DNA of 64,000 bases. Origin: Candidatus Bathyarchaeota archaeon A05DMB-2 (GTDB lineage Archaea; Thermoproteota; Bathyarchaeia; Bathyarchaeales; Bathycorpusculaceae). Location: the NCBI GenBank assembly GCA_018475625.1, contig JAAKEZ010000002.1:186001-250000 (forward strand). The letters run 5' to 3'. This document shows, in pieces, positions 4,038 to 64,000 of this stretch. How positions within the stretch are numbered: the first letter of the stretch is position 1; every line of letters begins with the position of its first letter. Under the pieces are notes generated by a model that was given only the letters and a program-made list of their open reading frames with translations, was not told where the DNA came from and searched no databases. The position numbers and the translations under genes are program-made.

Positions 4038-6377
4038 ATGATGATTAGGGGAACGCAGCACATGTTCAGAACATCGCGAAAATATCTCTTGCTACTCTTA
4101 ATTTTCGTGTTCGCGTTCACCTATCGTATGCTGCTGATGCATCGGGCAACTTATCCTCCTGGAGCTGACATCGGGCTGCATCAGAGCGTCATCTACTCCA
4201 TAACAGGATCAGGCACAACGAATTTCCTGTGGAATTACTATCAGATGGGAGGAGGACTCTCGCTAACCTTCCCTGGCTATCACATCTTTGTTTCGTACAT
4301 AATCATGATGACGGGCATGCCCGCTTACATGGCACATTCCGTGGTTGTCTCATTGTTCTCTTCGCTGATAGTCCTGTGCGCCTACTTGATAGTTCGGACG
4401 TTACAGGGAGAATCAGCCGCTTTAATCGTGGCTTTTCTGGTGGCAATCTCGCGTTTTGACGTAGAAATGCTTCTCTGGGGCGGCTACCCCAACACGGTAA
4501 CGCTTATGCTGATTCCCTTAGTCTTCTATCTATTCTTTCAAAGAGAACGTTTCTCTCTCGTTCCGTTTCTTGCTACGACAGCCATTTTGTCTGGTTCCAT
4601 TTTCTTGACGCATTCCCTCAGCGCCGTCATCTTCATCTTGGTCACATTTCTCACCGCGATGTTGGTGATGGCGTTTTCTAAAAGAATTGGTGTGCCGAGA
4701 GCACACGCGCTCGTTTGGTTTGTACCCCTTTTCCTCGGCGCTCTCCTTGTTTCGCCGTTTCTCATAGATTCCGCGCCTGCATACTTGAGTGCGAACGTGG
4801 ACACGTTCACTGGCGGCATGGCTGACATTAGGCAAGCGCTTCTCTCGACGCGGGTGCTTCCTCTGGAGCTTGTGTTGCCGCCGCTGATTTGTGTTCCCTT
4901 CTTCTTTTTTTTCTCGAAGAAGTATAGAAAACGCTTTTTCACCGTTCCAAGTCTGTTCCTCGCCATGTGGATTCTGGTTCCATTGCTCTTCACCCAAACG
5001 TTTTTAGTGGGGCTGTACACGGATTATAATCGTTTTCTGTACTACACGGTTTTGCCAGTCATCATAATTATCGCTTTGGGAATTGACCACGGCTCCGGGT
5101 TCTTCGCGCGTATAGCGGACACGTACCTGTCATTCACAAAGCAACTGTCACAATCCGCTAAAAACAGCAAAATCGCAACATGGCTAATGCCCCACCTTAC
5201 CCGAAAGAACCTCTACTCTTCCTTCGTCATCGGATTACTGCTTGTGGCTTTTTTCGCCGTGCCAATCTTCCTAACACCATCTCAGGGCGTGACGGCGCAA
5301 AGTTTCTACCAAGTTATGAACGACCCAGAATACGAGGCTATACAATGGGCAAGGCAAAACACGCCAGCTGGCTCAGTCTTCGTTTCCGACGCCCTTTACG
5401 GCTGGTGGTTCTCAGGCTTCGCGCAGCGCCCAACCCTGAGCGCGGTTGACCCACAGTACCTGACACTTGCCCGCGAGTTTGAACCAGCAAAGACTGCGAA
5501 GCTGTTGCTTGACACGGACTACATGATAGATAACGGTTTAATTCAAATCCGAGAAGACGGCGGATACATCGCACGGCACAACCCAGTTATCGTGGCGAAG
5601 CTCAACTGGACTTACTTCCCCTACTCTTTCCTGAACTTCAATAACAGCGAAACACAGGTCAAATACCGCATTAGTGACAGCCCAATGTCGATAACTCTAG
5701 ACAAGCTTACGGTGAAAGAGATGCATATGGAAAACGACTCTGACCACGCTACCATCACCGTCACAAAAGGAAATAACTACTTCAACTACACTGAGTTAAC
5801 TACAGTCTACAGAGGATCACGGTTCGTGAACATATCAATCACGTTAAACGCAGCTAACGGTGTTTCTCTAGACTGGCTTGACTTCACCGTGCACAGCAAT
5901 GGCAAGGTGCTTGCCCAGCAGAACAACACAATTGCACTACTAGACGGGGGAGTGAAAGCTTTCAGCCAACTAATCTTCGCCAAGGAACAGCCGAATGTGG
6001 ACGTGGTTAATCCTGAAAACCCCTGCATCTTTGAATTAGATTACAACTTGCAAGGCAAAACCCGCGGAGAAATCCAATTTTCTGCAACCGCCTACTCAGT
6101 CACCGATAGCTTGGAGTATTATCAGAGCCCAGAAGTAACAGCAGACTATTTTAACAAAATTATCGTCGACAACCTCAATACATACCAAACGAAAGCTCCC
6201 AATTCCCCCGTTCTTGACGTTTTCGACTACCAGAAAGCCGTCGTTGACTGGAACGTTTCATACATCGCTTGCCGAGATTCTGAAATAATCCCGAAATTTG
6301 CAGGCGACCCCGCTTTTAGTTTGGTGTTTATTAACGATGCCGTTGCAGTATTCATGGTGAAAAGAGGCTTCGAATAG
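4038..6377 (+). CDS. GT-C-like polytopic membrane protein (first of tandem pair)
   Basis: A 779-residue protein with one N-terminal membrane segment (residues about 16-34), an extracytoplasmic loop containing D44 and H48 (GADIGLH), about ten further membrane segments up to residue about 410, and a large soluble domain of about 350 residues rich in Asn/Thr and beta-strand-like patterns. This layout is that of GT-C membrane glycosyltransferases, whose catalytic aspartate sits in the first outer loop. The next gene has the same plan with D48/H52, so the D-x3-H spacing is conserved. No specific GT family could be assigned. It probably acts at the outer face of the membrane on dolichol-linked sugars; that is inference. 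The stop is one base from the next ATG. Confidence 0.6.
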   Translation: MMIRGTQHMFRTSRKYLLLLLIFVFAFTYRMLLMHRATYPPGADIGLHQSVIYSITGSGTTNFLWNYYQMGGGLSLTFPGYHIFVSYIIMMTGMPAYMAHSVVVSLFSSLIVLCAYLIVRTLQGESAALIVAFLVAISRFDVEMLLWGGYPNTVTLMLIPLVFYLFFQRERFSLVPFLATTAILSGSIFLTHSLSAVIFILVTFLTAMLVMAFSKRIGVPRAHALVWFVPLFLGALLVSPFLIDSAPAYLSANVDTFTGGMADIRQALLSTRVLPLELVLPPLICVPFFFFFSKKYRKRFFTVPSLFLAMWILVPLLFTQTFLVGLYTDYNRFLYYTVLPVIIIIALGIDHGSGFFARIADTYLSFTKQLSQSAKNSKIATWLMPHLTRKNLYSSFVIGLLLVAFFAVPIFLTPSQGVTAQSFYQVMNDPEYEAIQWARQNTPAGSVFVSDALYGWWFSGFAQRPTLSAVDPQYLTLAREFEPAKTAKLLLDTDYMIDNGLIQIREDGGYIARHNPVIVAKLNWTYFPYSFLNFNNSETQVKYRISDSPMSITLDKLTVKEMHMENDSDHATITVTKGNNYFNYTELTTVYRGSRFVNISITLNAANGVSLDWLDFTVHSNGKVLAQQNNTIALLDGGVKAFSQLIFAKEQPNVDVVNPENPCIFELDYNLQGKTRGEIQFSATAYSVTDSLEYYQSPEVTADYFNKIIVDNLNTYQTKAPNSPVLDVFDYQKAVVDWNVSYIACRDSEIIPKFAGDPAFSLVFINDAVAVFMVKRGFE

Positions 6378-8778: not shown

Positions 8779-9837
8779 TTACTGTTCGCGCAGCACTTTC
8801 GGCACGTACGCGCACGCTGGGTCGGATTCAAACAGGTCACCCGTGTAGTATTCTGCGCGTGTTCTGCAGCCGCCGCAGATCTCGCGGTACTCGCACACGC
8901 CGCACTTGCCCTTCAGGTTGCTCTTGTCACGCAACTTAAGGTGAAGTTCACTGTGTTGAAGATCATCCCAAACTTGTGTGAGCTTCTTGTCTTTCAGGTT
9001 TCCAAGTCTGTAGCCTTCGTGGAAGCCGCATGACCTGTAATCTCCGTTCTCAGTTACGCTTACATAGTTTCCGCCGATGGTGCATTTTCCTAGAAAGCCT
9101 TCTTGGAACCAGTCCCAGAAGTATGTTGGGTTCTTCTGGCGCACGATTCTCGCGTAGAAAGGTGCGTAAACGTTGATTTTGACTTTTCCCGCCAGCTTCA
9201 CCTGCAGGTCGTAGATTTCGTTGAAAGCTGCTTCATACTCGTCTGGTGTAGGCGCTAAATCGGGCATGTTGGAGCCTGCCCTGCCCACTGGAACCAGGTT
9301 GTGGTAGACGACCATGCGGGCTTTGTATTCTTCTCCGAGTGCTGCTGGGTGAGCCATATCCTTGATATTGTATTTTGTCATCGTGGTGACTATGCAGTCG
9401 AGGATGCCGTTTTCGGAGAGCTTTTTCATTGCGTAAATAGCCTTATCGTAGCTGCCTTTGCGCCTGATTATGTCGTTTGATTCCCTGTTGCCGTCCACGC
9501 TGACTGCCGTATGCACCTCGTACTTCACAAGCTTGTCGAGGCGTTCCTGGTCGAAGGCAAACCCGCTGGTTATCAGGCTGACTTCCATTCCGTACTCTTT
9601 TTCGGCGTACGCTATGATGTCAAAAATGTCTTTCCTTACAAGTGGTTCTCCACCGCTTATACCGAACCATGGCGAGCCGAAATCGTGAATTTCGTCAACC
9701 ATCTTGTAGGCGGTCTTGGTGTCTATCTCGGTGTCTTTGGCGTATTCAGGAGTGTAACTGCAATATAGGCAGCTGCCAACACATCTTCTGGTACACCGCC
9801 AAGTCACCATGTATAATGGTGCCTTTTTCGAAGCCAT
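8779..9837 (-). CDS. Radical SAM/SPASM domain protein
   Basis: A 352-residue protein. The radical SAM cluster cysteines are C19, C23 and C26 (CVGSCLYC), preceded by an extra cysteine at 15. ISGGEPL follows as the SAM-binding GGE motif. The C-terminal SPASM region has the usual cysteine array (CTIGG, CGFHEGYRLGN, CGVCEYREICGGC, then DPAC) for two auxiliary clusters. This architecture matches the AhbC/AhbD/PqqE-like group that acts on haem precursors or peptides; no precursor peptide or haem gene lies beside it, so the substrate is open. I start it at ATG 9837, not 9933, because a TATA-like element (9871-9878) lies within the longer frame. Confidence 0.82.
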   Translation of the reverse strand: MASKKAPLYMVTWRCTRRCVGSCLYCSYTPEYAKDTEIDTKTAYKMVDEIHDFGSPWFGISGGEPLVRKDIFDIIAYAEKEYGMEVSLITSGFAFDQERLDKLVKYEVHTAVSVDGNRESNDIIRRKGSYDKAIYAMKKLSENGILDCIVTTMTKYNIKDMAHPAALGEEYKARMVVYHNLVPVGRAGSNMPDLAPTPDEYEAAFNEIYDLQVKLAGKVKINVYAPFYARIVRQKNPTYFWDWFQEGFLGKCTIGGNYVSVTENGDYRSCGFHEGYRLGNLKDKKLTQVWDDLQHSELHLKLRDKSNLKGKCGVCEYREICGGCRTRAEYYTGDLFESDPACAYVPKVLREQ

Positions 9838-10163
9838 CAAGGTCACAGACAAAGCTAAATAAACATATGCGATATAAAACTTCCTCCTAAAACTCGAATT
9901 TCCGCGTATAATTGGATGGTGCAGACTATCCATTTTTTAGCACTTTTCAGCTCAGAAAAAAGCAACAGCATGACGCTATCAAAAAAGAGCAATTTTAAAC
10001 CATCACCTGTATGTATTGACGTTTGACATAGGATGGGAACGGCCTTATTTGAAGGCGAAAAGTCTAAAGAAACCAGATGTTCCTCAGAACGCGAGTAAAA
10101 CGCACAGTTAATTTTAAATACGCCTGCGTTGTTATTCGCCTTTTGTTACCTGGTGTCCCATGA
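9838..10163. other. Divergent promoter region with a hairpin and T-run
   Basis: This 326-base spacer separates divergent genes. It contains the minus-strand TATA-like element at 9871-9878, a plus-strand TATA (TTTTAAATA, about 10112-10120) for the RLAN gene, and a 7-bp stem (TGGATGG/CTATCCA, 9913-9919 with 9926-9932) followed by six T. The hairpin is listed separately. Nothing else recognisable. Confidence 0.5.
9913..9938 (+). terminator. Hairpin plus T6, terminator-like
   Basis: A 7-bp stem with one G-T pair, a 6-base loop and a T6 tail. It is oriented to stop plus-strand transcription although no plus-strand gene precedes it. It may insulate the divergent promoters or end a short non-coding transcript; a chance structure is possible. 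Confidence 0.25.
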
Positions 10164-53577: not shown

Positions 53578-54214
53578 AGAGTTGATTGCTTACCGTAAAA
53601 ACGTATCGTGAACGGCCGAGAAAATAAATTTGGAGAAACGATCCTTCATCAATTCCAAGTTGCTAATTTTTGTCAGCGCCATTTAAATCCGTACTATTTT
53701 TTAGTTTCTGATTCTCGGAGCACATAATGGCTACTGGAACGATGTGCATAGCGGCACAACTATGAATGCGGATAGCATTCCGTATTGAAGAGCAGGGTTC
53801 ATTGAACCTTGTTTAAAAATAATCTGAAATGTCACCCTTGTAATCCGCAAAATACTTGCCGCAGGAAGCCATCACAATTATTGAATAACTATTCAATTTA
53901 TCTCCATAAAATAAGCAGTATTACTACCCCAAATAATACCAAATATAAAGAAAAACACGTCGAACAGCCACCATTAACTCTGTCGCATTGGGCTCAATAT
54001 ATGAATAGGCACCAAAAAATGCCAAATTCCAAAACCAACAGAGCCAGCGCCACCAATTATCACCAAAATCTTGCCAATTAAACCAGATGTGTCGTCCAGC
54101 CTCTGGTTTTCAAATATTCTGTTAAGTATAAAAGCTCTGAGATTTTGAGAAATATATTTTGCAGTCTGTTTTTTAACAAAAAGGCTCTCGTACTCGCGCC
54201 CTAGGTGTTGGTAG
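53578..54214. other. AT-rich spacer at the host/provirus boundary
   Basis: A 637-base stretch with no convincing protein gene. It contains a TATA-like TTTAAAT (53682-53688), two good hairpins (53765-53786 and 53794-53810) and a run of very AT-rich sequence to about 54200. Composition changes sharply from the moeA gene, which fits with a boundary of an integrated element. Confidence 0.45.
53708..53815 (+). ncRNA. Candidate small structured RNA
   Basis: About 25 bases after a TATA-like element, an 8-bp stem AATGCGGA/TCCGTATT (loop TAGCAT, 53765-53786) is followed by a 7-bp stem AGGGTTC/GAACCTT (loop ATT, 53794-53810) and GTTTAAAAAT. Two adjacent stable hairpins behind a promoter-like element suggest a small RNA. 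No known family recognised. Confidence 0.25.
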
Positions 54215-54245
54215 TGGTGGGGCCGCTGGGATTTGTTCCCGCCCC
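54215..54245 (-). other. tRNA 3'-end-like sequence, probable attachment site
   Basis: Read on the minus strand, this ends AAATCCCAGCGGCCCCACCA, which is a typical archaeal tRNA 3' end with an encoded CCA, a discriminator A and a C-G-G-C-C-C-C acceptor strand. The T-stem and T-loop upstream (GCGGGAACAAAT) are damaged, since TTC is replaced by AAC and two stem pairs fail, and no complete tRNA body follows. This is as expected for the partial copy left at one end of an element integrated in a tRNA gene. Confidence 0.35.
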
Positions 54246-56567: not shown

Positions 56568-57914
56568 ATGGCGATAAAAATGACTTCAAATCAAACGACA
56601 GATAAAAATCGTGTTGAAATTCACGACGCTTTAAGCCATAAGACGCGCATAAAAATTTTAAAAGTTCTTCGAGATCATGGACCTTTGGGATTTGCAGAGT
56701 TAAAGGTAAAAAGTAACACTGAAAACAACAGTACTCTTCAGTTTCACTTGTTAAAACTAGGCAGTTTGATAGAAAAGCAACTGGGAAATTACGCAATCAC
56801 TGAAGAAGGTAGGGCTGCCTTGCTTGCTTTTCAGCCAATTGAAAAATATAACGAAGATGCACGATTCAGAGAACAAGTTGGGTTACTTATTCGGGCTTTA
56901 AGAAGCGATATAGAAAGTGTACAAGAGATATCTATTGTCCAGTTATCATTCCTTGGTCAGCGAGTTATTCCATACTTAACTTCAGCTTTATCGACAGCCA
57001 TAAAAGAGGCTGAAAATCAAGAAAAAAACAACTATTATTATGACAGTTCTAGGAAAAGAGGACCCGAAAATGCGATAAGGAGTATTGTTAAAGCATTAGG
57101 GATTATCAGTGTTCCTTCAACTGTTGATGACGTTAGTAAGGCATTACCTCGCACTGAAGCATTCGACGCATTAGCGAAAATTGGTAACAAACAAGCTCTT
57201 GATGCTATCGTTCAATCAATCTCTAAATGGTATTTCAAAAATATCGACACTTATTATAGTGACCCATATGGTCATCCATTGACACACGAGGATGACGAGA
57301 AAGCCACACAAGTGGATGAATTCGCTCGGAACATAGTTAATCATTTTGAAGAAGAAGCCCAACGGTCGCTAGAAACAGCAATGGTGACTGACAATTTCCT
57401 GGGCAAACAAGTAATTGCAAGAATGCTGGGTGTTATTGGTGACGACAGATCAGTCGGGTCTCTTTTAACAGCTCTGGAGAAAGAAAATTTTGCTGTAAAA
57501 GCAGAAACAGCGAAAGCGCTAAGACGGCTTAAGGCAAATACTGCTGTAGACAAATTGGTAGAAGAATTGCTCAAAACACAGGAGTTATTCACACAATCGG
57601 AACAAGGAAACTTTACTTTTGAAGAAAACGAACGAGAAAATGCAAGAGAAGCATGTAAAGCAATGGTGCAAGCATTACTTGATTTAGGCTCAATAAATGA
57701 CTGGATAAAAATTGCTTTTCATCGCCCAAGAGATGATCACTATGCAGAGCCTTTTGATAAAGCGTTGATAGAAAGCAAAGAACAAGCAGTACCTGCATTA
57801 ACCAAACTACTTAGTGATCCTGATGCGAGCATTCAGACCGCTGCAGCTGAGATGATCGCTAGAATCAAACGTGGCAAAGAAAACTCGGATTACTATTCCA
57901 GATACAGGTATTAA
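56568..57914 (+). CDS. Winged-helix plus HEAT-repeat protein
   Basis: A 448-residue protein. An ArsR-like winged helix occupies residues about 12-85 (HDALSHKTRIKILKVLRDHG, then STLQFHLLKLGSLIEKQLGNYAITEEG). From residue about 100 to the end it is built of HEAT-like repeats of about 30 residues (e.g. VGSLLTALEKENFAVKAETAKALRR and AVPALTKLLSDPDASIQTAAAEMIAR) broken by charged linkers. The combination of a DNA-binding domain with a HEAT scaffold could serve sensing or defence. Base use is more A-rich than in the host. It is followed directly by a micro-ORF. Confidence 0.65.
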   Translation: MAIKMTSNQTTDKNRVEIHDALSHKTRIKILKVLRDHGPLGFAELKVKSNTENNSTLQFHLLKLGSLIEKQLGNYAITEEGRAALLAFQPIEKYNEDARFREQVGLLIRALRSDIESVQEISIVQLSFLGQRVIPYLTSALSTAIKEAENQEKNNYYYDSSRKRGPENAIRSIVKALGIISVPSTVDDVSKALPRTEAFDALAKIGNKQALDAIVQSISKWYFKNIDTYYSDPYGHPLTHEDDEKATQVDEFARNIVNHFEEEAQRSLETAMVTDNFLGKQVIARMLGVIGDDRSVGSLLTALEKENFAVKAETAKALRRLKANTAVDKLVEELLKTQELFTQSEQGNFTFEENERENAREACKAMVQALLDLGSINDWIKIAFHRPRDDHYAEPFDKALIESKEQAVPALTKLLSDPDASIQTAAAEMIARIKRGKENSDYYSRYRY

Positions 57915-58452: not shown

Positions 58453-59514
58453 ATGTCTCAAGAGAACTGCACTAACTGTAAGCGGGTAAAAGAGCACGTG
58501 GGAACGGTTCTTCCTTTTCAGGTTCTTGAGAAAATAACTGATAAGCCCTTGCGCATTCGGGGAGTGGCCATGTGCACGGGCATAAGCCGAAATCTTAACA
58601 TTTACACCTCTGAGGAACTACAAGCCTTCTCAGGTAAGCTGGCTAATGCTCCAATCTACATTGAGCACGTTGCTGTGCCCAACGCTGTTGGCAAAGTAAC
58701 CAAGACCGACTGGGACGGGCATAACCTCTGGTACGAAGCTGAAATCTACGATGACCAGACCGCTGAGAAAATCCGCAAAGGACTAATCCAACACGTAAGC
58801 GTGGGGGCAGACTACGAAGCCATTGACGTTGTGGACGGCAAGGTCCCGCATGGATTGCATAATGCGGAGTTAAGTCTTGTAGCAGTGCCAGGTATTCCCG
58901 AAACTAACGTGCAGGTTTTGGAGAAGTTCGTGGACACCAAGGTCACGGAAGCTCTAAGAAAAGCGGGTGTTCAGGAGGCAGAGTGGGATACTGAGTACAT
59001 CAACAACCTGCCCGACGACTGCTTTGCCTACATTGAGGCTGGCGGGCAAAAAGACGACCAAGGCAAAACCACACCCAGAAGCCTTCGGCACTTGCCATAC
59101 AAGAGCGCTCAGGGCAACTTGGACGCGGCCCATGTCCGAAACGCTTTGGCACGGTTGGATCAGACAGAGATTTCTGCTGAGGCGAAAGCTCAAGCCCTAA
59201 AAAAGCTGTGCGCAGCAACTGGAGAACTCCAAATCGAAAGTGCCGTGTGCAACTTGCAAGGGAAAACTGAAGCACTCCAAGCGCAGCTGACCGAAGCGCA
59301 GAAAGCACTCGAAGACTTGCGGAAGCAGTTGCCCAATGGCGGCTTGCTCAAGAACCCGCTTAAACTGATTCCAGCTTCTGAAGCTGCCAAGATGGTTGAG
59401 TCTGTTTTGCCTTCTCCAATGGTTCAGAGAAGCTGGAGTCTTGGACCGCAGCGCATGTGCCAAGAACTGCGAAGAGTAGTTGTGCAGTTAGAGCAGAAGT
59501 CAGGGGGCAGCTGA
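58453..59514 (+). CDS. Prohead protease with C-terminal scaffold-like coiled coil
   Basis: A 353-residue protein. The N-terminal half has the phage prohead protease pattern: IRGVAMCTGISRNLNIYT, then GKLANAPIYIEHVAVPN, then GLIQHVSVGADYE with serine in the H-V-S-V-G strand and ELSLVAVPGIPETNVQVL. The middle (DDCFAYIEAGGQKDDQGKT, ALKKLCAATGEL) is a domain often found in such phage proteins, and residues about 268-300 form a coiled coil that could act as scaffold. It should cleave capsid proteins during maturation. It is preceded by GGAGG and the inverted-repeat promoter. Confidence 0.72.
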   Translation: MSQENCTNCKRVKEHVGTVLPFQVLEKITDKPLRIRGVAMCTGISRNLNIYTSEELQAFSGKLANAPIYIEHVAVPNAVGKVTKTDWDGHNLWYEAEIYDDQTAEKIRKGLIQHVSVGADYEAIDVVDGKVPHGLHNAELSLVAVPGIPETNVQVLEKFVDTKVTEALRKAGVQEAEWDTEYINNLPDDCFAYIEAGGQKDDQGKTTPRSLRHLPYKSAQGNLDAAHVRNALARLDQTEISAEAKAQALKKLCAATGELQIESAVCNLQGKTEALQAQLTEAQKALEDLRKQLPNGGLLKNPLKLIPASEAAKMVESVLPSPMVQRSWSLGPQRMCQELRRVVVQLEQKSGGS

Positions 59515-59599: not shown

Positions 59600-60028
59600 A
59601 TGGCTGATAGATCTGGCAAAAGCTGGATGGCAGTTGGCGAAACCGACGACCCCAACGCGTTAATCGAGTCGTTTGAGGCTGAGGCTGCAGTCACCAAAGG
59701 CTCACCCGTCTACCTAAGCGCGGACAACAAGGTTTCGGAAAGCCCCGGCGGAGACAACGCTATAGGCGTAGCCGTCAAAACTGTGGCTTTAGGCGAAATG
59801 TGTCCTGTGCTGAAGCGTGGCAGAGTCAAAGTTACCGCTAACGGTCCAATAACCCGAGGCACGGCAGTCTGCAGTGCAGCAAACGGCAAAATCACTCAGC
59901 TTGTAGATCAACCCGTGAACGAGGGCGGCTCAGCGACGTACACGATTTTCTATAACCGCAAGCTCGGCACAGCCCTTCAATCTGCAACGGCGGACGGCGA
60001 CCTGATTTTCATAGATGTGGAGAAGTGA
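59600..60028 (+). CDS. Capsid decoration-type protein (DUF2190-like)
   Basis: A 142-residue protein, mostly beta strands. TKGSPVYLSADNKVSES, AIGVAVKTVALGEMCPVLKRG and RVKVTANGPITRGTAVCSAANGKI follow the pattern of small phage head-decoration proteins. It sits between the protease and the major capsid protein, the usual place. Its last four bases overlap the next GTG. An 85-base spacer before it contains nothing clear. Confidence 0.65.
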   Translation: MADRSGKSWMAVGETDDPNALIESFEAEAAVTKGSPVYLSADNKVSESPGGDNAIGVAVKTVALGEMCPVLKRGRVKVTANGPITRGTAVCSAANGKITQLVDQPVNEGGSATYTIFYNRKLGTALQSATADGDLIFIDVEK

Positions 60029-60987
60029 CATCGATGAAACCACGACTTTTTGAATCGCTGATGGCTAAGCCGAACGACCAGCGTGAAGTCTACGAGAAGC
60101 TCAAGCTGAAAACTGAGCATCCGTTCCTGAAGCGCTATGCTGCTATGGGCATAAAGGAAGGCTTGTTCAGCGACATGACAGGCGCCCTTGGCAGAATGCA
60201 CGACACACTTGTGCAAGCCGCCTTTCCCGAACTCATTGGCAGAAACATAATCACCGTTATGCCTACATCCGAGCCGATGGAGCGTTTTCCGCTGGACGTG
60301 GACGCTGTTGCTTACCGCTATTCTGAAGGTGCAGTCACAAGGCTGAGCGGTAAGAAAAACACGACAGTCGACATCTACACTAACCAGTTGGTTGATGCTT
60401 CCGAGGAGTGGACACGCGAGTTTCTCGAAGATGCCACTTGGAACGTCATGGACAACATGGTGCAGAAGGTCGGCAGAGCCATAGGACTTGAGGAAACCGA
60501 GGCGATCATCGCATTATATGGTGCAATTGCGGATGCAGATTTGGCTGGCGGAGCACCAATCAACGGAAACAACGCTGTGCTTAGCTGGAGTGGACTGCTT
60601 TCGTTGCATAATGCTGTTCGAGGCGAGAACTGGCGCCCTACAGTGTTGGCGGTTAGCGAGACACAGCTGCATCAGTTGCTCAACGATGACAAGTTCATTC
60701 ATGCGCAGTATTTCCCAAGCAGTGAAACCGACATTGAGCAGGGCAGCATCGGAAGCGTCTTAGGCATGCGTGTTCAGGCGAGCACTCTGGTTCCTAACGG
60801 CACAGCCTACGCCATAGACACCCGAGTAGCGTCAGCTATGCTTCTGCGCAGGGACATAACAGTTGAGGACTGGGAAGACGTCAAAACAGGCAAGTACGGC
60901 GTTCGTGCAACCACACGGTTTGGCTTAGGCATCCTGCGTTCAGCTGCAATTGCCAAAATGACCAACATCAAAACTACGCTGACCTAA
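60025..60987 (+). CDS. HK97-fold major capsid protein
   Basis: A 320-residue protein. The N-arm is short; the body has KNTTVDIYTNQLVDASEEWTREFLEDATWNVMDNM (spine helix region), EEWTREFLEDA, RPTVLAVSETQLHQLL and GSVLGMRVQASTLVPNGTAYAID, then AVRATTRFGLGILRSAAI-like end, all typical of tailed-virus and encapsulin-type shells. The GTG 60025 overlaps the previous gene; ATG 60034 is an alternative. A T-rich stretch (about 61009-61025) follows and may give partial termination, which would raise capsid protein levels over portal. Confidence 0.75.
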   Translation: MTSMKPRLFESLMAKPNDQREVYEKLKLKTEHPFLKRYAAMGIKEGLFSDMTGALGRMHDTLVQAAFPELIGRNIITVMPTSEPMERFPLDVDAVAYRYSEGAVTRLSGKKNTTVDIYTNQLVDASEEWTREFLEDATWNVMDNMVQKVGRAIGLEETEAIIALYGAIADADLAGGAPINGNNAVLSWSGLLSLHNAVRGENWRPTVLAVSETQLHQLLNDDKFIHAQYFPSSETDIEQGSIGSVLGMRVQASTLVPNGTAYAIDTRVASAMLLRRDITVEDWEDVKTGKYGVRATTRFGLGILRSAAIAKMTNIKTTLT

Positions 60988-61054: not shown

Positions 61055-62290
61055 ATGAGTAAAGTCTTCAGGAAAATCCGTGAGGTCCTCTCCTATGCGC
61101 CTGCTTCGGGCGTGGCATCTCCAAAGCAGAGAGTGTTCTTTGACACTTCCTGCATACCTTTAACGGATGTTATGAAGCTTTACGACCGAGACCCAACATG
61201 CAAAAGCAGCGTAGATCTACTGGCAGCATCCACGGTTGGCATGGGCTTCTACACCACAGCCGATGAAAAATACGAGAAAGCCTCCGAAGCGAAAGCTGCT
61301 GTGGACAAGTTCTGTGAAGACGTCAACGTGGATGGCATGCTCAATGAAATGGCTAAGCCGCTGATTGGTTGTGGCAATGATTTTTGGCTAAAACTCACAC
61401 CTGAACAGCTAACCGATATCGTACGCACACCAATTGATGCGATACAGCGTATTGGGCTTAGCTCCGTTCCCGACTTGAAGCTTCCAAACAAAGTTACGGG
61501 CTATCAGCTCAAGAGTACCTATGCTGGTAGTGCAGGAAATGAGCTTAAGCCTGAAGCTGTGATTCACTGGCGCCTTAGCGGTGATGTCCCCTCCGGTTTT
61601 GGAGTCGGTTTGTTGCAGGTGCTTTTGCACACGTTAACGCTTGATACTGATAAGCGCCCATCGTATGCATGGATGAAGGCGAAAATCGAGAAGATACTGC
61701 CGAACATCTTCACAAAGTACGCTGGACCCGATGTTGTTGTGCAGTTGGAAGGACAGAAAGAGGACACCATCAAGAAGTACGAGAGCGCCATTAAGAATCG
61801 ACCGGAAGAGGGGCAGTGGCTTTTCAGCGGAGCCAAGAATGTTGGAGTCTATCCCGTCACAATCGACCCGCGAGCTCGCTTCGAGTACTATATCGACCAT
61901 ATGGTTAACCAGTTCTATCTTGGATGCGAAACACCGCTACCACGGCTTTTCAGCACTCCAGGCTTCACCGAAGCCTCGGCGAGAGCAGCCTTAGACCTTC
62001 AGGACATGCTCATCAAGCCCGTGCAGCGGTACATCAAGCGTCAAGTAGAAAGGGAGATTTTCGCGGTTGTCGTCGCTCAAGCGGGTCTTGATGCGGTTAA
62101 GGCGAAGGTTCGGTTGAATTTTGGCAGTCCCGAAACACCTGAGCTTGTGCCCTCAGACCTGATTAAGGCTGCTGAGTTGGGGCTGGTTAGAGCGGAAGAG
62201 TTCCGAAAGAACGCTGTCAAGTTTGGCTGGGAGCTTTGGGATGCCCAACCCGAAGGGGAAGTTCAAAGTAAGGAGGTAAATGAGAAATGA
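61055..62290 (+). CDS. Portal protein
   Basis: A 411-residue protein. DVMKLYDRDPTCKSSVDLLAAST, GNDFWLKLT, IQRIGLSSVPDLKLPNKVTGYQ, AVIHWRLSGDVPSGFGVGLL and the helical wing/stem region IDHMVNQFYLGCETPLPRLF...ARAALDLQDM match phage portal proteins. The portal forms the twelve-subunit ring for DNA entry. It lies downstream of the major capsid gene instead of upstream of the protease, which is not the canonical order. Its stop overlaps the next ATG. Confidence 0.75.
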   Translation: MSKVFRKIREVLSYAPASGVASPKQRVFFDTSCIPLTDVMKLYDRDPTCKSSVDLLAASTVGMGFYTTADEKYEKASEAKAAVDKFCEDVNVDGMLNEMAKPLIGCGNDFWLKLTPEQLTDIVRTPIDAIQRIGLSSVPDLKLPNKVTGYQLKSTYAGSAGNELKPEAVIHWRLSGDVPSGFGVGLLQVLLHTLTLDTDKRPSYAWMKAKIEKILPNIFTKYAGPDVVVQLEGQKEDTIKKYESAIKNRPEEGQWLFSGAKNVGVYPVTIDPRARFEYYIDHMVNQFYLGCETPLPRLFSTPGFTEASARAALDLQDMLIKPVQRYIKRQVEREIFAVVVAQAGLDAVKAKVRLNFGSPETPELVPSDLIKAAELGLVRAEEFRKNAVKFGWELWDAQPEGEVQSKEVNEK

Positions 62291-62501: not shown

Positions 62502-62852
62502 ATGGGTAGTGTGTCAGCGGAAGATGTCAGAGATGCCCTCAACGTAAAAGACTCGGATATTTCTGACGCTAAAGTTCTAAAGATGATTAAGCGAGCAGAG
62601 GTCACTTTAGAGCTTGAACTCTCCGCTGGTATCGACTACCAGAACTGCAGCGAAGCCCAAAAAGAAGCAATAACGCTCCTGGCTGCCATTTACGCAGTAT
62701 GTTACTTGACTGGCGGCTCAGCAATCGGCTTAAACTTCAGCGTAGGCGACCTAACTAATTCCACAGCATCTTTACCTAGTTTAGCGGTTCTGCAGGCGGA
62801 ATTCGAGCGGGTTCTATCTAGCCTCAAAGAGCCTTATGTGGGGAGCGTGTAG
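62502..62852 (+). CDS. Head-tail connector/adaptor protein
   Basis: A 116-residue protein of mostly helices. SAEDVRDALNVKDSDISDAKVL and MIKRAEVTLELELSAGIDYQNC, then AITLLAAIYAVCYLTGGSA, match the small gp6-like adaptors that follow portal genes. It should sit under the portal ring. I start at ATG 62502, not the longer frame from 62355, because the latter lies inside the membrane-protein gene. The stop is two bases before the next ATG. Confidence 0.6.
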   Translation: MGSVSAEDVRDALNVKDSDISDAKVLKMIKRAEVTLELELSAGIDYQNCSEAQKEAITLLAAIYAVCYLTGGSAIGLNFSVGDLTNSTASLPSLAVLQAEFERVLSSLKEPYVGSV

Positions 62853-62854
62853 AC

Positions 62855-64000
62855 ATGGGAACCGTTCCTGAAGTTTATTTCCAATTTGTCATGGAATATG
62901 CGCCTTATGTCTACGTGATTCCGCCTGATACACCGGATCCAGCGTTTGGACAAGGCGTCTTAGCAGCCAGTTTTGCCATCGACTTTCTCTGTGAGGCGTA
63001 CTCTGCCAAGCAGTTTGAGGACAGAAAAGCAGAAGTCTATGACAAAATCGTTAGCTTAGCTGATTGGGTTCTAACCCAGCAGTGCACCGACCCAGCAAGG
63101 AAAGCGTATGGCGGATTCAAAAGCAGCGAAACCAGCACATACTATTACAGTGTAGACGCCTGCAGAGTCATTCCGTCACTTCTAAGAGCATATGAACTCA
63201 CGAATGATTCCAGCTACCTGGATGCTGCCAAGCTAGCTGGCGGAACATTTCTCAAGACTATGCAGGACCAGCAAGCCTATGGTGGCTTTGCACGGGCGGT
63301 AACAATCGGGGACGCATGGCTCCTGCAGATGGATATTGAATGCCTCTACGGACTAGTAGGACTGAAGCTATTGGCAGAAAAACACGACACATCCAATGCA
63401 GCCGTTTACCAAAGCATAATGGGCAAGGCAGTTGGCTTTCTCAGGGAAGGCTTAGAAAACTTATGGCTGCACTTCGACCCTTCAGATGGCAAATGGCACA
63501 GAGTCGGCTTAGCTGAGAATGAGGTTTACGATGACCCGTTCGCCTATGCCTTAGTGGGTTTGTATGAGGTGGAAGGTTGGAGTCTCACTTGCCAGAGAGT
63601 CTACAACTTCCTAAACAACATTCGTGCCAGCGCCACCTATCCAGCCTATGACCCTGCCGTGTGCTGGGCTGGCTACATAGACGTCGTCAGCAGGTTCGTT
63701 GCTTGTGACTATTATGATGCGGTTACAAGTGGAATCCTCTGGCGAATCCGCAGAAACCACGACCAACCCAGCCTAAAGTTCAGTGTAGAAGTCATCGGCA
63801 AACACAGTGAGGAGTTCATGTTCTGGGGCGTCAAGCATGCCGAATACAGCTTTGTGGAAAACAAGTGGGCTATGGCGACGGTCTGCTGGATAGCACAGCT
63901 ATTCCTAAACTACGAGGAACCCACAACCCAGTTTACCAAGATTCTGAGAAGCAAAGGCGAAGCCGTTACGCTTTATCCTGTTCGTCAAGCTGCCGTCACG
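62855..64000 (+). CDS. Alpha/alpha-toroid-like virion protein, 3' end outside window
   Basis: Open from ATG 62855 to the last base, 382 codons without a stop. Residues about 35-345 are paired helices with loops such as AYGGFKSSETSTYYYSVDAC, AYELTNDSSYLDAAKLAGG and AENEVYDDPFAYALVGLYE, the pattern of six-hairpin sugar-active enzymes or epimerases. From residue about 357, TTQFTKILRSKGEAVTLYP looks like the start of a head-closure or other structural domain. It directly follows the connector gene, so it likely belongs to the head-tail joint or tail. The stop and full domain list are beyond the window. Confidence 0.6.
   Translation, partial: MGTVPEVYFQFVMEYAPYVYVIPPDTPDPAFGQGVLAASFAIDFLCEAYSAKQFEDRKAEVYDKIVSLADWVLTQQCTDPARKAYGGFKSSETSTYYYSVDACRVIPSLLRAYELTNDSSYLDAAKLAGGTFLKTMQDQQAYGGFARAVTIGDAWLLQMDIECLYGLVGLKLLAEKHDTSNAAVYQSIMGKAVGFLREGLENLWLHFDPSDGKWHRVGLAENEVYDDPFAYALVGLYEVEGWSLTCQRVYNFLNNIRASATYPAYDPAVCWAGYIDVVSRFVACDYYDAVTSGILWRIRRNHDQPSLKFSVEVIGKHSEEFMFWGVKHAEYSFVENKWAMATVCWIAQLFLNYEEPTTQFTKILRSKGEAVTLYPVRQAAVT

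Follow-up and report, generated by a model that had tools for sequence, protein, structure and literature searches.

A glycan-enzyme-like (alpha/alpha)6 toroid as N-terminal extension of a predicted head-closure protein in Bathyarchaeia tailed proviruses

Within a 64,000-nucleotide stretch of archaeal DNA (the window hereafter; G000:C37:186001-250000), a tailed provirus encodes a predicted protein in which an (alpha/alpha)6 toroid lies N-terminal to a head-closure (stopper) domain, beside the putative portal and adaptor. This architecture is supported by structure prediction, fold search, gene order and toroid-less relatives. Computation establishes the two-domain fold, its genetic position, its conservation and its dispensability in a related virus. 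At its head-tail junction, the virus probably displays a ring of glycan-active domains with which to handle the sugar-coated surface of its host.

Predicted structure of the two-domain protein

The AlphaFold2 model of the 463-residue protein (alignment of 56 homologues; mean pLDDT 86, pTM 0.87) consists of six helix pairs (residues ~6-367) followed by a beta-barrel (~369-459). The pairs are formed by helices 35-50/52-74, 99-116/119-138, 161-177/179-201, 226-240/244-254 and 289-302/304-316, and by helix 340-351 with either 359-367 or 6-15; in the prediction they form the closed ring of an (alpha/alpha)6 fold. For the helical part, a Foldseek search of the PDB retrieved sugar 2-epimerases, the unsaturated glucuronyl hydrolase 3wiw, GH76, GH8 and other (alpha/alpha)6 proteins (E ~1e-7 to 1e-5), the TM-score of the whole model to any single enzyme being 0.4-0.54. 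The earlier note, made from the sequence alone, had read the frame as paired-helix repeats of the six-hairpin type, and the six predicted helix pairs and the (alpha/alpha)6 matches bear this out; a prediction devoid of an alpha/alpha toroid, which would have told against it, was not obtained, as the model shows a toroid with high confidence.

The C-terminal part was matched in the PDB search to a neck chain of Pam3, 8hdr_A (TM 0.74, normalised to target length), and in a search of viral models to many head-tail joining proteins and SPP1-type adaptors. Together with the phrog_939 match of a stand-alone homologue, these matches identify the domain as a beta-barrel of the SPP1 gp16 / Hc1-type head-closure fold. 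Among the matches listed in the viral library, none matched both domains over its length. The further proposal that the toroid runs into a head-closure or joint segment is likewise upheld by the barrel, the 8hdr_A match, the gene order and the toroid-less relatives.

Reading frame and sequence conservation

The gene lies on the forward strand at 62855..64000, where the earlier note had seen a 382-codon open frame cut by the window end. The frame is present there and runs stop-free for another 81 codons past the window end, to a total of 463 (L008:5856-7247; window-equivalent end 64246). A stop codon directly after the window, with no second domain, had been named as grounds for rejecting the fusion; the 81 additional codons instead encode the beta-barrel. 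The toroid takes up residues ~1-367, while the C-terminal head-closure barrel (residues 369-459) starts at 63959..64000 on the same strand and lies nearly all beyond the window, its first ~14 residues alone falling inside. Only 2 bases separate the gene from the putative adaptor gene, and the next gene is overlapped by a few bases, as is seen in packed virion operons.

An alignment of 112 distinct full-length sequences, with identities as low as 43%, has both domains in one frame throughout. For close pairs, median omega is ~0.08 in the toroid and ~0.05 in the head-closure domain (synonymous distances are high, 0.6-1.4), and the toroid is under purifying selection. It is also the more conserved of the two domains, with a mean top-residue frequency of 0.76 versus 0.66 across the 112 sequences. 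Broken copies in some other genomes (G055:C10, G037, G082) would suit a fusion by accident, a pseudogene or an error of assembly, but such an origin of the frame is barely conceivable: many assemblies together provide 112 distinct intact sequences, and omega is ~0.08, which rules out a chance or artefactual frame for the family.

Several variants of the gene were also observed. A subgroup (L014:358-1980; also L110, L111 and L116-L121) carries an extra segment of ~70 residues near toroid residue 22, and a similar segment is found again in the baseplate gene of L176, which suggests a mobile small domain. At L288:5630-6670 (G007:C1), a deletion remnant fuses the N-terminus of the toroid in frame to the C-terminus of the baseplate protein. 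In L155 / L173 (G155:C1:127105-127326), a head-closure-like remnant shares one frame with an apparent DNA topoisomerase VI subunit B, a joined frame that reads as a trace of integration or a chimera.

Gene order in the virion module

The genes leading to the toroid-head-closure gene are all on the forward strand, and most are assigned from position and conserved synteny: a putative prohead protease/scaffold of 353 aa (58453..59514), a putative capsid decoration protein of 142 aa (59600..60028), a putative major capsid protein of 320 aa (60025..60987) and a putative portal protein of 411 aa (61055..62290), the last of which gave no match in family and profile searches. The putative head-tail adaptor (116 aa; 62502..62852), directly upstream of the toroid gene, is assigned by position; its homologue in L176 has a weak match to phrog_302 ('virion structural protein'). 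In L008, the order is putative protease/scaffold, decoration, major capsid protein, portal, adaptor, toroid-head closure and a 340-aa gene, followed by tail tube, a 156-aa gene, Neck1-type tail completion (phrog_5, E 1.5e-16), a short tape-measure-like gene, a baseplate-like gene and a small gene, and then by small terminase, large terminase (phrog_2, E 7.3e-37), an ABC-ATPase/acetyltransferase and Argonaute. The order adaptor, toroid/head closure, terminator and tube is intact in ~137 of the loci examined. In these loci the gene thus follows portal and adaptor and precedes the tail terminator, as a head-closure gene should, with portal, adaptor and terminator assigned by position and fold only.

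The 340-aa next gene, the putative tail terminator (model pLDDT 90), aligns at its N- and C-terminus with the short terminator and carries ~170-190 residues inserted between. The fold of this insert matches several carbohydrate-binding modules (CBMs), phloem lectin and capsule tailspikes, as well as phage 812 baseplate proteins, the CBM likeness being weak (E 1e-4 to 3e-3, low TM). On these fold matches, a lectin-like beta-sandwich module would usually sit on the ring next to that of the toroid. The toroid occurs with a bare terminator in L073/L074, L215 and L250, so that the two modules are separable and an obligate pairing is ruled out; apart from loci cut by contig ends, no locus was seen with the terminator insert and without the toroid.

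Provirus of the window and distribution of the fusion

The left attachment site of the provirus is a 22-bp exact repeat of the 3' end of a tRNA-Pro gene (54214..54235, forward strand; partner L009:11492-11513), and an integrase gene (L009:10191-11459) adjoins the tRNA-Pro repeat. The element between the repeats, of ~33.3 kb, holds the toroid-head-closure gene, a gene for a winged-helix (DUF7347) and HEAT-repeat protein (56568-57914) and an Argonaute-family gene (L008:16519-18744, window-equivalent 73518-75743; PADLOC PprPIWI, E 9.6e-73). Next to the latter lies the ABC-ATPase/acetyltransferase gene (L008:14860-16356; weak mad3-like match, E 1.9e-11), which accompanies the virion module in many relatives. 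The provirus also encodes a UvrD-type helicase with a PD-(D/E)XK nuclease domain (L009:3909-6653; also GajB-like), beside which a DNA methylase gene is found (L009:1510-2523).

A Bathyarchaeia provirus of 33,358 bp with pPIWI and a 'CpcE' gene, BATPV1 (JAAKEZ010000002_pro), is described in an earlier report (PMC11705971). The provirus of the window is probably BATPV1 or a close relative, because its size of ~33.3 kb, its Argonaute and its HEAT-repeat gene fit that description. If it is BATPV1, the gene at 56568-57914 is probably the metabolic gene that was published under the name phycocyanobilin lyase (CpcE), and its product is more likely a HEAT-repeat regulator or scaffold than a light-harvesting enzyme. 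The sole epimerase of that report is a UDP-glucose 4-epimerase of another provirus, and the passages found in it make no mention of a neck-toroid gene or fusion (PMC11705971). No mention of a neck fusion was found in a survey of Bathyarchaeia viruses (PMC10848311), nor any report of one in targeted searches of non-subscription literature.

The window genome holds six distinct copies of the gene, with 56-72% identity to the window copy. Six diverged copies of the virion module (L008, L010, L011, L012, L013 and L014, some on short contigs or contig ends) in one archaeal genome represent heavy polylysogeny or remnants. The gene is present in 29 of the 101 relatives searched, in 146 confirmed IMG/VR stretches and at 17 loci of GTDB-species contigs whose record titles name Bathyarchaeota, Crenarchaeota or an uncultured archaeon, which rules out an oddity of a single genome. 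No match was found by tblastn among 50,697 phages. A toroid profile matched 11 of 300 genomes across the phylum, ten of them in the window's own order. Besides viral copies, this search gave a single cellular toroid, a distant one (G445/L287; hhalign probability 94%), so that no close cellular source of the toroid emerged from it.

Relatives without the toroid

In G065 (L176) and the IMG/VR contigs L178-L181, the same place is taken by a stand-alone head-closure protein of ~112 aa, which begins where the toroid ends in the window gene and is followed by a terminator of 153 aa. The stand-alone protein matches phrog_939 (head protein; E 8.6e-8), which supports the identity of the C-terminal domain, and has a weak match to phrog_161 ('head closure Hc1'; E 0.18). 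Since such a clade exists, the toroid can be regarded as an add-on. In the tail-tube tree, the toroid-less clade is nested among toroid-bearing clades, and the simplest reading is that the toroid was lost or replaced there; alternatively, the module may have been exchanged. Whether lost, replaced or exchanged, the head closes without it.

L176 also encodes a GH32/43/130-like propeller, recognised below threshold (best E 2.8e-4), and a family 2 glycosyltransferase located between portal and adaptor; a substitution of the toroid by these two is possible. Three of its virion genes, at L176:12682-13683, 9424-10026 and 4222-5238, correspond to the propeller, a 200-aa ORF of unknown family and the glycosyltransferase, respectively.

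Candidate chemistry of the toroid

In sequence, the toroid best matches the D-glucuronyl C5-epimerase family, locally, over the hairpins at residues ~64-225. Of 17 diverse members, 14 gave a match to the Pfam family C5-epim_C (PF06662), with a best E of 1.3e-5. The window protein alone scores 21.6-22.3 bits against a cut-off of 23.3, over part of the profile only, and a six-frame search with neighbouring stretches added placed four of the six copies in the window genome above the cut-off, again with a partial profile. The stretch of human C5-epimerase that can be aligned with the toroid is 342-450, and the catalytic tyrosines of that enzyme presumably lie beyond it.

The other (alpha/alpha)6 families gave less. 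No match to PF03663 (GH76) was found in the window genome or the 17 members, and Pfam gave the toroid no match to PF07221, the AGE-type sugar 2-epimerases; the catalytic histidine pair of the latter is missing, as the toroid has at most one near-invariant histidine (H215). When compared by hhalign, archaeal GH76 and 2-epimerase sequences did not match the toroid in any meaningful way, and nothing usable came from a GH88-like set whose template ORFs were partly mis-extracted. PF06662, GH88, GH76 and the sugar 2-epimerases share the (alpha/alpha)6 fold with the toroid, but the matches are local only and the catalytic residues unmatched. We know of no member of these families that forms part of a virion neck.

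The toroid is rich in conserved residues. D101, R104, W214, R216, D226, D227, Y231, Y265, W271, Y274, Y287, D288, R299, W324 and W345 are invariant or near-invariant in the 112 sequences, and D101, R104, W214, R216, D226, D227, Y265, W271, Y274, Y287, D288, W324 and W345 lie, in an exploratory reading of the model, where the first helix of each hairpin opens, either within its first turn or in the loop that precedes it. This is the usual active-site face of the (alpha/alpha)6 fold. Conserved charged and aromatic residues are enriched in these loops and turns (Fisher P ~0.001-0.01), an exploratory figure in that the segments were picked after the model had been viewed. The invariant pair Asp226-Asp227 occurs within YDDPFAYAL. 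Two adjacent aspartates where an inner helix starts form the catalytic pair of GH76 alpha-mannanase; the archaeal GH76 sequences L307-L309 have YYDDNEWVTLAL here, which hhalign leaves unaligned with YDDPFAYAL, and the likeness is a motif resemblance and a lead only. Of the candidate catalytic acids, for which the earlier note proposed to look, D101, D226, D227 and D288 are invariant, but none can be aligned to a characterised enzyme. The earlier note had suggested a surface depolymerase or a decoration fused to the neck; the invariant pocket-like residues and the CBM-like insert of the neighbouring gene favour glycan handling, and the toroid could be either of the two.

Proposed role and its rivals

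Known stoppers form a hexamer between the adaptor and the tail terminator, and by this analogy a virion neck would display about six toroids facing outward. The window protein is read as the head-closure protein of a Bathyarchaeia tailed provirus, carrying a glycan-enzyme-like toroid as an N-terminal extension, with the terminator, through its usual carbohydrate-binding-like beta-sandwich insert, forming a second ring. During adsorption, toroid and insert, as catalytic domain and binding module on two stacked neck rings, would attach to the glycans of the host's S-layer or surface coat and cut or otherwise process them. Glycans are suggested by the fold, by the invariant acids and aromatics, by the C5-epimerase sequence matches and by the CBM-like neighbour, and we consider it somewhat probable overall that the protein is a stopper with a toroid extension whose neck rings process host-surface glycans at adsorption. 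A more specific version is held tentatively, at rather less than even confidence: a split machine, with an active (alpha/alpha)6 enzyme on the stopper (candidate residues Asp226-Asp227, with Asp101 and Asp288) and a lectin module on the terminator, would divide catalytic domain and binding module between two stacked neck rings and make the head-tail junction a surface-processing organ of this group of archaeal tailed viruses.

A serious though less probable alternative is that the toroid retains the fold of an enzyme ancestor without its chemistry and serves as a non-catalytic, glycan-binding or reinforcing neck decoration, such as a lectin or an adaptor-stopper clamp. Non-enzymatic neck decoration is known (PMC12886913, PMC10491603), and for no enzyme family could the catalytic set be confirmed in the toroid. 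However, many invariant acids, arginines and aromatics on one face, and conservation above that of the head-closure domain, exceed the needs of a scaffold, even if a lectin pocket would fit them too. It is unlikely that the toroid works within the infected cell, as a uronate or sugar epimerase for instance, and modifies the glycans of virion proteins while particles are assembled. The C5-epimerase match, the fold match to sugar 2-epimerases and the glycosyltransferase between portal and adaptor in the toroid-less relative would fit such an activity, but it would not need fusion to a stoichiometric neck component, and no glycosyltransferase was present among the window provirus genes read. More generally, the toroid may have a role in lysis, in assembly or of a purely structural kind.

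Comparison with known systems and significance

Virion enzymes acting on host glycans are known at tail tips, tailspikes and baseplates. To our knowledge, virion-borne glycan-active domains have precedents, while the head-closure position and the toroid-stopper architecture do not. The closest comparison is HFTV1, an archaeal tailed virus solved head to tail, whose turret hub protein combines carbohydrate-binding and deacetylase-like domains and is proposed to bind and trim host glycans; its authors were aware of no previous case of a carbohydrate-degrading domain in an archaeal virion protein (PMC12494034). Both systems place a predicted carbohydrate-active domain and a binding module on an archaeal tailed virion; HFTV1 has them on capsid turrets, with a deacetylase-like fold and both domains in one protein, whereas here they are on the neck stopper and terminator, with a toroid fold and in two genes. 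The toroid-stopper would thus do from the neck what HFTV1 does from its turrets.

The stopper of phage 812 is a hexamer that has an external beta-sandwich and touches outer decoration proteins with its termini, and decorations sit at its adaptor-stopper and stopper-terminator joints (PMC12886913). It shares with the window protein an extra domain on a stopper; the extra domain is a beta-sandwich in 812, without an enzyme-like toroid, and a predicted toroid here. The consulted part of the DepoScope report lists the alpha/alpha-toroid among phage polysaccharide-degrading folds, where it is rare (11 of 984 fold hits), and makes no mention there of a head-closure fusion (PMC11326577); these depolymerases share the fold class of the present toroid.

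An enzyme-like domain in the head-closure protein, a neck component that is among the smallest and the most tightly constrained, occupies a new place. The fusion is kept across a large group of Bathyarchaeia viruses, whose hosts, archaea of soil and sediment, are hardly cultivated. Natural controls are at hand in the clade that lacks the toroid and in those whose terminator is bare, and as the gene can be expressed alone, it offers a direct handle on the surface glycans of these hosts and on how their viruses pass them.
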